Part shown: positions 2,541 through 6,463 of the stretch, in pieces
How the letters are laid out: each line of letters starts with the position of its first letter
Numbering within the stretch: the stretch's first letter is position 1
Assembly: GCA_903915955.1 (NCBI GenBank)
Contig: CAIWUU010000099.1
Location: 1-46,159, forward strand
DNA length: 46,159 nt
DNA from: an uncultured Chlorobiaceae bacterium
GTDB taxonomy: Bacteria; Bacteroidota; Chlorobiia; Chlorobiales; Chlorobiaceae
Direction: 5' to 3'
Notes under the pieces: generated by a model
Told to the model about the DNA's origin: nothing
Databases searched by the model: none
What the model saw: the letters and a program-made list of their open reading frames with translations, nothing else
Program-made: the position numbers and the translations under genes

Positions 2541-3247
2541 TGTTTTTCATAACGCAGACCATGCGCCCCATGATTACCGATGCAACGCTCGCCTTTCTCC
2601 GTGACCTGAAAAGCAATAATAACCGACTCTGGTTTGGAGAACATAAAAGTGAGTCCCTTCAGGCTTATGGCGATATGCTTGAGACGGTGGTACAACTGCT
2701 TGCGGCAATTACCACGTTTGACAGTGATATTGCGGCCTCTCATCTTGATCCGAAAAGCTGCATCATGCGCATCAACAGGGATATCCGTTTTTCAAAGGAT
2801 AAATCGCCCTACAAGACAAATGTCTTTGCCTTTATCAACAAGGGTGGCAAAAAGAGCCCCTGGGGAGGCTATTACCTCCATCTGGAACCGGGGGAATCGT
2901 TTGCCGGAGGGGGAATCTACATGCCTGAGCCTGCTGTTCTGGAGCAAACGAGACGGGAAATTGATGCACATTTCGGGGAATGGCAGACGATTATTGCAGA
3001 GAAGATGTTTATCTCACAATTTCCAGAAGGGGTGCTGCCCTCAGGTACATTGGTCAGGCCGCCGAAAGGGTACGAGAGCACCAATCCTGCAGTGGAGTAT
3101 CTCAAGTTCAAAGGGTATTACACCCAGCGGTTTTTCTCCGACGACGAGGTCACTGATCCGGGATTTGTAGCAGAAATTGTCCAAACGTTCAGGGCAGTTA
3201 CCCCTCTCGTTCATTTTCTTAACCGGGCGTTATTCTCTATGCCATGA
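2540..3247 (+). CDS. DUF2461 family protein
   Basis: The protein (235 residues from the first ATG) matches the DUF2461/TIGR02453 family. Features are the early FLRDLKSNNNRLWFGEHK segment, MRINRDIRFSKDKSPYKTN in the middle, and GGYYLHLEPGESFAGGGIY before the C-terminal helices. The function of the family is not known. Members are cytoplasmic and about 220 residues long. The start is uncertain: ATGs at 2561 and 2570 fit the family's usual N-terminus better, and none has a clear ribosome binding site. The gene stands alone, divergent from the antitoxin gene, and no operon is evident. Confidence 0.85.
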   Translation: MFFITQTMRPMITDATLAFLRDLKSNNNRLWFGEHKSESLQAYGDMLETVVQLLAAITTFDSDIAASHLDPKSCIMRINRDIRFSKDKSPYKTNVFAFINKGGKKSPWGGYYLHLEPGESFAGGGIYMPEPAVLEQTRREIDAHFGEWQTIIAEKMFISQFPEGVLPSGTLVRPPKGYESTNPAVEYLKFKGYYTQRFFSDDEVTDPGFVAEIVQTFRAVTPLVHFLNRALFSMP

Positions 3248-3440
3248 ACAGAGCAGGATACTCTTTTGACATCTGGATAATGATCTCCTCTTCAGGCGAT
3301 AAGGCGCTCGAACCCGTACGTTCGGACTCCCATTTTTTCAAGCCAGGATATTTTACACGAACTGGCTCTCTTGAAAAATGAGCCCACTGTAAGATGGTTG
3401 AGTACCATATTGAAATTGAGTCTGCCATAAGTGCCGCCAT
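3237..3440 (-). CDS. Small hypothetical ORF, doubtful
   Basis: A 67-codon minus-strand frame overlaps the last 11 bases of the DUF2461 gene. The product has a plausible soluble composition, with a charged segment SPEEEIIIQMSKEYP near its end, but no domain is recognised. There is no clear ribosome binding site before the ATG at 3440. It may be a real small gene, a remnant or chance. Confidence 0.2.
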   Translation of the reverse strand: MAALMADSISIWYSTILQWAHFSREPVRVKYPGLKKWESERTGSSALSPEEEIIIQMSKEYPALFMA

Positions 3441-3795
3441 TAAAGTGAAAAATAACTCTGTTGTCTTTTACCGACTATGAGAAAATCATCAAAAGAGTGC
3501 ACATTGTAAATCCCGCTTTAACGGCATATTTCATACCGCAAATGAGGTATATTTCTCTGCGCTTCGCTTGACAAGGGCTTCAATTCGATGCTGAAAGTGC
3601 ATTGCGACGGGAAGTCTGAGATCCCCGCCATTGTTCACAAGCTCATGCTGATACCTTTTTTTGATATGACTTTTTCGGAAATTGTAGCACAAAAAAACGC
3701 TGTGGTGCAATTAATCCTGTAGATTCAACGTTATATGTCTTCTTGAGGTGTTGTCCTGAGTAGTTTATTCACTCATCAAAAATGGAGATACAACA
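3441..3795. other. Gene-poor stretch before the metallopeptidase
   Basis: No supported gene is seen. A short minus-strand frame (about 3520-3710) encodes a basic peptide containing YQHELVNNGGDLRLPVAMHF and ends in TGA. It lacks a good start and is not recognised, so it may be the tail of a lost gene. The last bases (GGAG at about 3784) supply the ribosome binding site of the gene at 3796. No strong terminator hairpin was found. Confidence 0.4.
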
Positions 3796-5292
3796 ATGTC
3801 AGAAAATGTTCAGGTCGGGGGTATGCAGGAGGTATTCATACAATTAAAAGGCAAGACATTAAAAGATGTTGAGCGGTCGATAGCGTCCGTTGAGAGTATC
3901 GGCGGGCGCGTTACGCACGTCTTTCCTCCTGGCATTATGGTGGCATCTGTGCCATCGGTAAAGGTAAAATTATTACGGCGCCGCGCAGGAGTGATATCGG
4001 TGGAAACAGGCACGATTGCGAAGGGGGGGCTGAAAGATCTTGGTCATGAGCTGGATCTGGCAATTGATGCGTGGAACAACCATATTGGGGCAGAACGGAG
4101 GACAAGGGCGATTGAAAGCCCCTTGCTCGACAAATCCTGGGATACAAACAAGTTTCTGCCGCCTGATCCTCCTGCAGAGGTCATGGCAGAGTTGAGAAGG
4201 CGTGATGCCGAATTGGCTCCTGCACAGGCAAAAGGGCCAGCAGGCGCACCAAACATGAACATTCCTGTTTTGGTTGGGAGGGTCGCCGTGGGCATCGTTT
4301 TTGTTGACAGTACCATTGCCCAGTATAAAATAACAGATGCTGAAAAGTCAAAGATTATCTCGGAAACAACAGAGGGGCTCAACATGCTGTCAAGCTTTGA
4401 GCCGAATGCGAATATTCAGTGGGTCTACGATTTCAAGCGACCCAAAATAAACCTCCAAAGCGGAAGCTTCCCTGCTGCAAACCAGAATGGCTGGGAAGAC
4501 ACGTGGCGAAATGCCGCTGTGGCTGCAATGGGTTATTCTGCCGATATCAACGGAATGAATAGTTACATAAACAGCATAAAGGTCGCCAATAATGCGCAAT
4601 GGGCCTATGCTCTCTTTGTGACGAAGTATCCTAAAGTCTGGTTTGCGTACTATTGGGGCAATCATGTCGTTATGGACTTTGCTGTTGACGGTTGGGGAAT
4701 TGACAATTTCAATCTTGTTGTCGCTCATGAAACCGGTCACGTTTTTGGGTGCGGGGATGAATATGCTGCCAGTGGATGCACCTGTACAAGTCTCCATGGA
4801 CGCTACCAGGTGAAGAATGGAAATTGCGAAAACTGTGCGCCGGTCTCCATTCCATGCCTGATGAAGTCTAATTCGCAAGCGGTTTGTGACTATACCAGAG
4901 GACAGCTTGGCTGGAACGAGCTTGCAATAAAATCACGGGGTGCCACCACTTTTAAGGGCACGTGGACATTCGACCTGGATAGTGGCGTACAAGGCCCGGC
5001 TTCTGGTGCAGATCTGTGGTGGGAGCAGGTAAATACCGTTACGCGCTATCTTGTTCCGCAAAGCGGTGCGATGCTTGCAAATCTGGGAGCAGTTAATTTT
5101 GATGCGCTAAGCCGTCAAACCCTCATGACGAAAGCATATACAGCAACACCTATCAATGGGAGCAATAACGCTTCAAACAAATTGACACCGGGAACCGTCA
5201 TTGCCATCAAAACCAATGCTGGTCGTTATGCCAAAATGCGTATTGATACCTATGGCTACAACTTGGGTATTACCTGGGTAACCTACAAATAA
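3796..5292 (+). CDS. Metzincin-like zinc metallopeptidase with N-terminal pro-like domain
   Basis: The 498-residue product has HETGHVFGCGDEY at residues 311-323. This fits the extended zinc site HExxHxxGxxD, with ligands H311 and H315, catalytic E312 and D321 as probable third ligand, as in metzincins that use Asp. A later PCLM segment (about residues 354-357) could be the Met-turn. Seven cysteines cluster just after the zinc site and may form disulfides or bind metal. Residues 10-75 form a compact alpha/beta domain resembling a peptidase propeptide/inhibitor fold (inference), followed by a linker with LPPDPP. No signal peptide or membrane segment is visible, so export is unclear. A GGAG site lies about nine bases before the ATG. 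The next gene encodes a stand-alone relative of the N-terminal domain, which suggests a peptidase/regulator pair. The substrate is unknown and I cannot assign a named peptidase family. Confidence 0.75.
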   Translation: MSENVQVGGMQEVFIQLKGKTLKDVERSIASVESIGGRVTHVFPPGIMVASVPSVKVKLLRRRAGVISVETGTIAKGGLKDLGHELDLAIDAWNNHIGAERRTRAIESPLLDKSWDTNKFLPPDPPAEVMAELRRRDAELAPAQAKGPAGAPNMNIPVLVGRVAVGIVFVDSTIAQYKITDAEKSKIISETTEGLNMLSSFEPNANIQWVYDFKRPKINLQSGSFPAANQNGWEDTWRNAAVAAMGYSADINGMNSYINSIKVANNAQWAYALFVTKYPKVWFAYYWGNHVVMDFAVDGWGIDNFNLVVAHETGHVFGCGDEYAASGCTCTSLHGRYQVKNGNCENCAPVSIPCLMKSNSQAVCDYTRGQLGWNELAIKSRGATTFKGTWTFDLDSGVQGPASGADLWWEQVNTVTRYLVPQSGAMLANLGAVNFDALSRQTLMTKAYTATPINGSNNASNKLTPGTVIAIKTNAGRYAKMRIDTYGYNLGITWVTYK

Positions 5293-5363
5293 ACCACAGC
5301 CGATCTATGAACAAGAGGTTGTGAACTTTATCAGCGTTGATGTGTTTATGGGGGGAAGGTGCT

Positions 5364-5822
5364 ATGGCAGGACAAGAAAATACCAGTCATTTGATCGATG
5401 CCTTCCTCCTTGTGAAGGGAGATGCGATGGATCTGTTTGAGCAGTTGTCCCGGGAGGTAGAAGCTGTTGACGGGAGTGTCCGTCATGTATTTTTACACCG
5501 AATTATCTTTGCATCTCTTCCCGTAGACAAGATAGCGGCTCTTCTGGAAAGTTCTGTTCTTGCGTTGTTGACAACAGATGAAATTGTTGAGCCCCTGCCC
5601 CCATTATTAGCCGCGGATGAATTTTTGGACATTATCCCGATTTGGAATAAACTCCTGAGAGTAAAGCGCGATAGTGCGCACAACAGAGCAACCGATAAAG
5701 ACCTTTCGTGGGATGCAGAGGGCCATCTGCCTCCGGATCCTCCAGCTCAATTCAAGGAAATGATGAGAGAGTGGGAAAATGAGATGAACAACGCTGCTGA
5801 TAACAAAAAAAAGTACCTCTGA
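5364..5822 (+). CDS. Stand-alone homologue of the neighbouring peptidase's N-terminal domain (possible inhibitor)
   Basis: The 152-residue product aligns by eye with residues 10-150 of the upstream peptidase. It shares a strand and helix (DAFLLVKG against EVFIQLKG), VRHVF against VTHVF, IIFASLPVDKI against IMVASVPSVKV, then a WNK/WNN helix, and finally LSWD...LPPDPPA against KSWD...LPPDPPA. It stops where the peptidase's catalytic domain would begin, ending in a charged tail. The start at 5364 is chosen because GGGGGGAAGG lies about four bases upstream; the ATG at 5337 has no such site. The genes are in the same direction 71 bases apart, so co-transcription is likely. The role is inferred: it could inhibit, chaperone or compete with the peptidase pro-domain. 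No catalytic motif is seen. Confidence 0.65.
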   Translation: MAGQENTSHLIDAFLLVKGDAMDLFEQLSREVEAVDGSVRHVFLHRIIFASLPVDKIAALLESSVLALLTTDEIVEPLPPLLAADEFLDIIPIWNKLLRVKRDSAHNRATDKDLSWDAEGHLPPDPPAQFKEMMREWENEMNNAADNKKKYL

Positions 5823-5842
5823 AAAGAAAGATGTAACCTGCC

Positions 5843-6463
5843 ATGATCACCGACTACGAATGGCCTCTTTGGAGAGAAGCAAAGCTGATCTGTGGCATTG
5901 ACGAGGCTGGCCGGGGGCCTCTTGCCGGGCCGGTAGTGGCTGCTGCGGTTCTTTTTCCCCGCTTTTTCCGAGCTGCTGGCACTGTTCTGGAGCTGCTGAA
6001 TGATTCCAAGCAACTCTCTGCGGGAGAGAGGAATATGTTGGCTCCTGCGATCAGAAAAGCAGCGGCATGCTGGGCCGTCGCTGTGGTTGAGCATGACATC
6101 ATAGACAGCATCAACATTCTTCAGGCGACCATGCTGGCCATGAACGATGCCGTCATGTCGTTACCAACAATACCTGAGCTGCTGCTTGTAGATGGCAACA
6201 GGTTCAAAACAGAGCTCTCAATCCCTTTTAAAACAATTATTAAGGGAGACTCAAAGGTTTTTTCGATTGCTGCGGCATCAGTGCTGGCCAAAACGCACCG
6301 GGACGAGCTGATGGTGGCCTATGGCGAGCTATACCCGCTCTATGGCTTTGAACGTCATGCTGGCTACGCCACCAAGGCACACGTTGAGGCAATCAGGCAG
6401 CACGGACGATGCCCGATTCACCGTCTGAGTTTCAAGCTTCGCCAACTGGGCGAAAAACCATGA
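5843..6463 (+). CDS. rnhB: Ribonuclease HII
   Basis: The 206-residue protein cleaves the RNA strand of RNA-DNA hybrids and removes misincorporated ribonucleotides. Family motifs are clear: [14 protein letters not shown] at residues 18-31 with acidic pair D20/E21, NDSKQL at 53-58, LLVDGN with D117, and the [20 protein letters not shown] block at 135-154 that supplies another metal-binding Asp. [10 protein letters not shown] near the C-terminus is also typical. Length is normal. The stop overlaps the yraN start (ATGA), so the two are translationally coupled, as in many bacteria where these genes are neighbours. Confidence 0.97.

Follow-up and report, generated by a model that had tools for sequence, protein, structure and literature searches.

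The locus studied here lies in a window of 46,159 nucleotides from an uncultured Chlorobiaceae bacterium, this being the whole stretch of DNA that was analysed and one contig of a Chlorobium-like genome. It comprises two consecutive genes, one for a zinc metallopeptidase and one for a small protein, separated by a gap of 71 bases and each preceded by a plausible ribosome-binding site (Table 1). An earlier note on this DNA had described the first product as a 498-residue peptidase with an HExxHxxGxxD site, and its coordinates as well as the residues H311, E312, H315 and D321 proved to be right. Its remark that neither protein has a visible export signal agrees with the hydropathy of both N-termini, for which the best 15-residue mean is about 1.2 with no strongly hydrophobic segment. 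A foreign base composition was also considered and rejected, as the GC contents of the two genes (0.49 and 0.46) give no signal against that of the window (0.46).

Table 1. Features of the peptidase gene and its downstream neighbor, in window coordinates.
Feature	Position	Strand	Basis
Zinc metallopeptidase, 498 aa, no signal peptide	3796..5292	+	Translation, motif, near-identical copy in second genome
Predicted I9-type (propeptide-fold) N-domain of peptidase, residues 10-72	3823..4011	+	AF2 and Foldseek
Tail of peptidase prodomain, SWDTNKFLPPDPPA; D124, candidate zinc-blocking Asp	4135..4176	+	Block common to small protein; role putative
Catalytic zincin domain, residues 158-375	4267..4920	+	Sub-cut-off M6, snapalysin and reprolysin-like profile matches
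Zinc site HETGHVFGCGD (H311, E312, H315, D321)	4726..4758	+	Sequence
Candidate Met-turn methionine M356 (PCLMKS)	4861..4863	+	Sequence; within M6 profile match
C-terminal accessory domain, residues 378-498	4927..5289	+	Identity to domain in other proteins
Free-standing prodomain copy, 152 aa, proposed inhibitor	5364..5822	+	Homology to peptidase; conserved in second genome
Predicted I9-type fold of small protein, residues 10-70	5391..5573	+	AF2 and Foldseek
Tail of small protein, SWDAEGHLPPDPPA; D125, candidate zinc-blocking Asp	5706..5747	+	Common block; LPPDPP unchanged in second genome

The zinc motif of the peptidase occupies residues 311-321, with HETGHVFGCGDEY starting at H311, and M356 follows 35 residues past D321, inside an M6 profile match that reaches residue 373. 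This match, to the NCBIfam model M6dom (TIGR03296), has an E-value of 7.6e-5 and 22.7 bits against a curated cut-off of 110.8; the snapalysin model NF033628 follows (E 0.004, 17 bits, cut-off 300), along with Pfam reprolysin-like models (E 0.01-0.04). Among PDB sequences, snapalysin (1c7k) matches the catalytic part over the HETGH motif only (E 0.8). Overall, searches with Pfam, NCBIfam and PHROGs matched the peptidase to nothing but zincin models, and weakly, and gave no match for the small protein. The catalytic part is thus a zincin domain, with the aspartate as the likely third ligand, that is akin to the M6 and M7 families but belongs to neither by the curated thresholds. M6 (immune inhibitor A type) and M7 (snapalysin) enzymes have the same HExxHxxGxxD motif and a downstream methionine; the peptidase differs from them in its N- and C-terminal domains and has no signal peptide. 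Seven cysteines are clustered around the zinc site (residues 319-364; positions 4750-4890), which is unusual for a protein with no export signal, and these could possibly form disulfides or hold a structural metal.

The peptidase has three parts, the first of which, the N-domain with its tail, takes up residues 1 to ~130. Past the catalytic domain, residues from about 378 to 498 (~120 residues) form a separate domain, absent from the earlier note, that is common to otherwise unrelated proteins. In other Chlorobiaceae, ~674-residue proteins carry close to their N-terminus a domain with 42-45% identity to it, and plasmid proteins of Sinorhizobium and Streptomyces are 34-38% identical; other proteins with the domain likewise seem to have no signal peptides. 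Searches of Pfam and the PDB yielded no relative. We consider it to be an independent accessory module that probably binds something. This domain is the only part of the pair with relatives in plasmids, and none of the pair was found in phages and viral contigs; at the DNA level, WD-x4-LPPDPP (L or F) was matched five times in the viral contigs, each time by chance. Two of the neighborhoods in which the domain occurs are of note. On a Streptomyces canus plasmid (L018 1542-6011), a C1 peptidase, an I42 chagasin-type inhibitor and a protein with the domain are encoded consecutively, with the first and the last seeming, by eye, to have a further beta-rich domain in common. In one relative (G058; L013 9635-17522), near the same chromosomal site and after DUF2461-rnhB, there are genes for a propeller-like 674-residue protein with the domain, an LRR-Roc-COR-TIR protein and an eCIS_core plus OmpA protein.

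The small protein was claimed to match only the part of the peptidase before the catalytic domain, shared linker included, and our analysis upheld this. It aligns with peptidase residues 12-143 only, at 30% identity (40/134; pairwise E 2e-14), and the match was also recovered in a whole-genome search (E 9.9e-10). The real alignment scores 55.5 bits, compared to a maximum of 24.6 bits for 2000 shuffled copies of the small protein. The densest common block is DxSWDxxxxLPPDPPA, with 11 of 16 positions identical, and the concentration of identities within it is only mild (permutation p 0.035); the whole tail, SWD-x4-LPPDPPA, is kept in both copies. The whole-genome search found no further copies of the prodomain. 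As there are no direct repeats within 3100-6000, a recent duplication was rejected as the origin of the small gene, and this lack of a DNA-level repeat, together with the 30% identity, indicates that the duplication is old.

An AlphaFold2 model of the small protein, for which the four input sequences amount to two nearly identical pairs, predicts strands at residues 10-17, 38-43, 47-53 and 66-70 and helices at 22-34 and 54-61 in the order beta-alpha-beta-beta-alpha-beta, with a block-mean pLDDT of about 67-82 over residues 11-70 and a low-confidence tail. In a Foldseek search of 350,542 PDB chains, subtilisin-type propeptides were the first and most consistent matches of this model, namely those of Tk-subtilisin and subtilisin E/BPN' and the PCSK9 prodomain, mostly at probabilities of 0.9-1.00. 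Isolated Tk-subtilisin propeptide chains reached probabilities of 0.94-1.00 with target TM-scores of 0.72-0.79, and the stand-alone I9 inhibitor POIA1 was also among the matches. The N-domain of the peptidase was predicted at lower confidence (pLDDT about 46-63) with strands at 10-16, 38-43 and 47-53 and helices at 22-34 and 54-61, and it likewise matched Tk-subtilisin propeptides (probability 0.99-1.00, 26-27% identity over 62 columns). The full-length peptidase model, with a mean pLDDT of 33, is usable for the N-domain only and too poor to position the tail at the zinc, and the models of the two copies are not independent, since they have input sequences in common.

These comparisons moderately favor an I9-like fold for both N-parts: the structural support is good but not conclusive, because the Foldseek E-values for the small protein are only 0.06-0.3. 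At the sequence level, Pfam Inhibitor_I9 (PF05922) matched neither copy at E-values up to 10, a search of the genome with the same profile found nothing, a profile-profile comparison (hhalign) with I9 gave a probability of 2.7%, and PDB sequence searches returned nothing meaningful for the N-domain. We regard the missing profile match as weak counter-evidence, given that subtilase propeptides have little sequence in common (PMC6993865). Thus, the earlier comparison with I9-type propeptides is borne out at the level of the fold, for both copies, but not by any sequence profile. With a fold of moderate resemblance, no I9 sequence match and a partner that is not a serine protease, we have not filed the small protein as an I9 member.

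The pair is present in two of 86 genomes of the family, which are closely related, the second being a metagenome-assembled 'uncultured Chlorobiaceae bacterium'. Phylum samples of 296 and 394 genomes contained no additional genome with the pair; apart from the two genomes, a profile search of the latter yielded just one frame, which is interrupted by stops (E 0.009). In both genomes the pair sits between the DUF2461 gene and rnhB (window 3248-5842). Many relatives have these two genes as close neighbors with a short gap and no pair between them, and in two of the nearest relatives (G035, G057; L058, L059) the same place is occupied by an FGE-sulfatase-type gene. The interval is therefore a variable slot that, depending on the genome, holds the pair, the FGE-sulfatase-type gene or just a short gap. 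Elsewhere in the window, a 127-residue frame on the reverse strand (1409-1792) looks like a truncated remnant of a 319-residue protein with a TEQV repeat (L012:2433-3392).

The peptidase genes of the two genomes share 99.1% identity (dS 0.033, dN/dS 0.053) and the small genes 96.3% (dS 0.097, dN/dS 0.235); thus, both genes are kept together under purifying selection. The flanking genes are only 87-93% identical (dS 0.20-0.49), and this higher divergence points to a recent exchange of the pair, or at least of the peptidase gene and its upstream region. At the protein level, the small protein has changed at 8 of 152 residues as against 2 of 498 in the peptidase (Fisher p 2e-4), and its faster change may be due in part to recombination, since dS differs too. 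LPPDPP itself is unchanged, and two of the eight changes in the small protein fall just after it.

In our preferred reading, to which we give about an even chance, the first gene of the pair encodes a latent metallopeptidase and the second an inhibitor that derives from the propeptide and acts in trans. The succession of prodomain, tail and catalytic domain gives the peptidase a zymogen-like arrangement: it would be a metzincin-like enzyme with an I9-fold prodomain and a proline-rich tail at its N-terminus. In cis, the prodomain would aid folding and hold the enzyme inactive, and cleavage after the tail would release the active form. The 152-residue protein, as an old duplicate of prodomain and tail, would then bind in trans to that face of the mature enzyme which the cis prodomain occupies, and silence any enzyme activated too early within the producing cell. 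By analogy with the CPDCP aspartate of fetuin-B in astacin, the aspartate between the prolines of LPPDPPA is a natural candidate for the zinc blocker, and as an aspartate switch it might coordinate the catalytic zinc. The fully specified version, in which the I9-fold prodomain would block the metzincin zinc through this proline-caged aspartate and the free-standing copy would exert control in trans inside the cell, is offered tentatively and is rather doubtful as a whole. An inhibitor is favored by the retention in both copies of the whole tail, since a domain that served folding or structure alone would have no obvious need of it. On the other side of the balance stand the restriction of the pair to two genomes, the commonness of alpha/beta folds like that of the model, and the seven active-site cysteines, which in the absence of a signal peptide leave the site of action unexplained. 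Further, known I9 inhibitors target serine proteases.

The main alternative arises from the lack of an export signal in either protein and the presence of an eCIS-type cluster in the genome: the common N-part might be a docking or sorting module that directs both proteins to one scaffold or one export apparatus, such as an injection particle, with no part in catalytic regulation. The cluster (G000:C161, L020 8457-18057) codes for an AAA ATPase, a 1110-residue eCIS_core (DUF4157) protein and baseplate-like components, and the apparent lack of signal peptides in other proteins with the C-terminal domain is consistent with such a role. However, the cluster and the pair are on different contigs, the only eCIS_core match of the genome being on C161 and none in the window; the Streptomyces protein with the C-terminal domain has no eCIS genes in its vicinity, and the fold matches are to protease propeptides. 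We thus hold docking or sorting to be unlikely. An eCIS_core gene does lie about 4 kb from a protein with the C-terminal domain in one relative (L013), which is too little to count, and a main reading of the pair as eCIS cargo was dropped, as the cluster is elsewhere in the genome with no link to the pair. A comparably low probability attaches to the small protein being mainly a folding helper in trans, as with separately added subtilisin propeptides, with any inhibition incidental. The fold match to propeptides would suit this, and mesophilic bacterial subtilase propeptides are described in PMC10580911 as both chaperones and inhibitors; but a second chaperone would be redundant to a peptidase with its own prodomain, and the retained tail suits blocking of the active site better than help in folding.

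The remaining two readings draw on the position and the evolution of the small gene. An antibacterial toxin and immunity pair, in which the peptidase would be sent into competing bacteria while kin are shielded by the small protein, would account for a small gene directly downstream, for the variable slot between core genes, and for a peptidase gene recently exchanged between two species and its faster-evolving partner. Yet neither protein has a delivery domain or marker and no secretion-effector genes adjoin them, leaving this quite improbable. Immunity proteins, moreover, are seldom known to be duplicates of a prodomain that belongs to the toxin itself. Least probable of all is that the small gene is a functionless leftover of a partial duplication. 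Its presence in two genomes only and its faster divergence than that of the peptidase (8/152 versus 2/498) are what such a leftover would show, but the frame is intact and preceded by a plausible ribosome-binding site, the dN/dS is 0.235, LPPDPP is unchanged, and a duplicate old enough to have fallen to 30% identity is still open; the maintained frame in particular makes a dead duplicate unlikely. Of the roles that the earlier note had offered for such pairs (inhibitor, chaperone or immunity factor), all belonged on the short list, and the evidence favors the inhibitor, short of proof.

If the reading as a trans-acting inhibitor is true, the I9-type fold would be a general protease muzzle used across catalytic types, and LPPDPPA a short, testable zinc-blocking motif. 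As far as we are aware, bacteria have few proteins that inhibit metallopeptidases, and it is mainly among serine and cysteine proteases that a prodomain is known to occur also as a separate, stand-alone copy. Given the rarity of the pair among genomes, it probably matters little to the biology of green sulfur bacteria.

The earlier note recognized this arrangement from no described system, which is only partly right: subtilases are known to have stand-alone inhibitors that resemble propeptides (POIA1 and SUB1-ProM; PMC6993865). The metallopeptidase partner is unusual, and in a small literature search no metzincin with an I9-fold prodomain was described. In Plasmodium, the gene for the propeptide-like SUB1-ProM adjoins that of its protease, which this free-standing protein inhibits potently and selectively (PMC6993865). 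As predicted for the small protein, both it and POIA1 are prodomain-like, free-standing beta-alpha-beta-beta-alpha-beta domains, but their targets are serine proteases, whereas here both the cis partner and the neighbor are a zinc peptidase. With respect to the tail, astacins, fragilysin-3 and karilysin are held latent by a pro-segment aspartate on the zinc (PMC9629494), and astacin is inhibited in trans by fetuin-B, whose rigid CPDCP loop carries the zinc-binding residue D153 (PMC6789097). The candidate LPPDPPA would resemble these in placing a constrained aspartate segment, as in a proline-flanked loop, outside the catalytic domain; in contrast to the prodomain described here, the pro-segments of astacins are short, with little structure, and fetuin-B is of the cystatin type. 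The closest parallel among zinc enzymes is provided by the M14 procarboxypeptidases, zinc peptidases whose prodomain is an alpha/beta open sandwich, one of which (1pyt_A) was among the weaker Foldseek matches of the peptidase N-domain; however, the catalytic domain does not belong to M14, and the scores of subtilisin propeptides are higher. The S. canus plasmid cluster resembles the pair in having a peptidase with no evident signal peptide, an adjacent inhibitor gene and the same C-terminal domain nearby, but its peptidase is a cysteine enzyme, its inhibitor is of the chagasin type, and it has no I9-like domain. Thus, a protease accompanied by a stand-alone propeptide-type inhibitor is a known strategy, so far with serine proteases, and the zinc enzyme is the unusual part.
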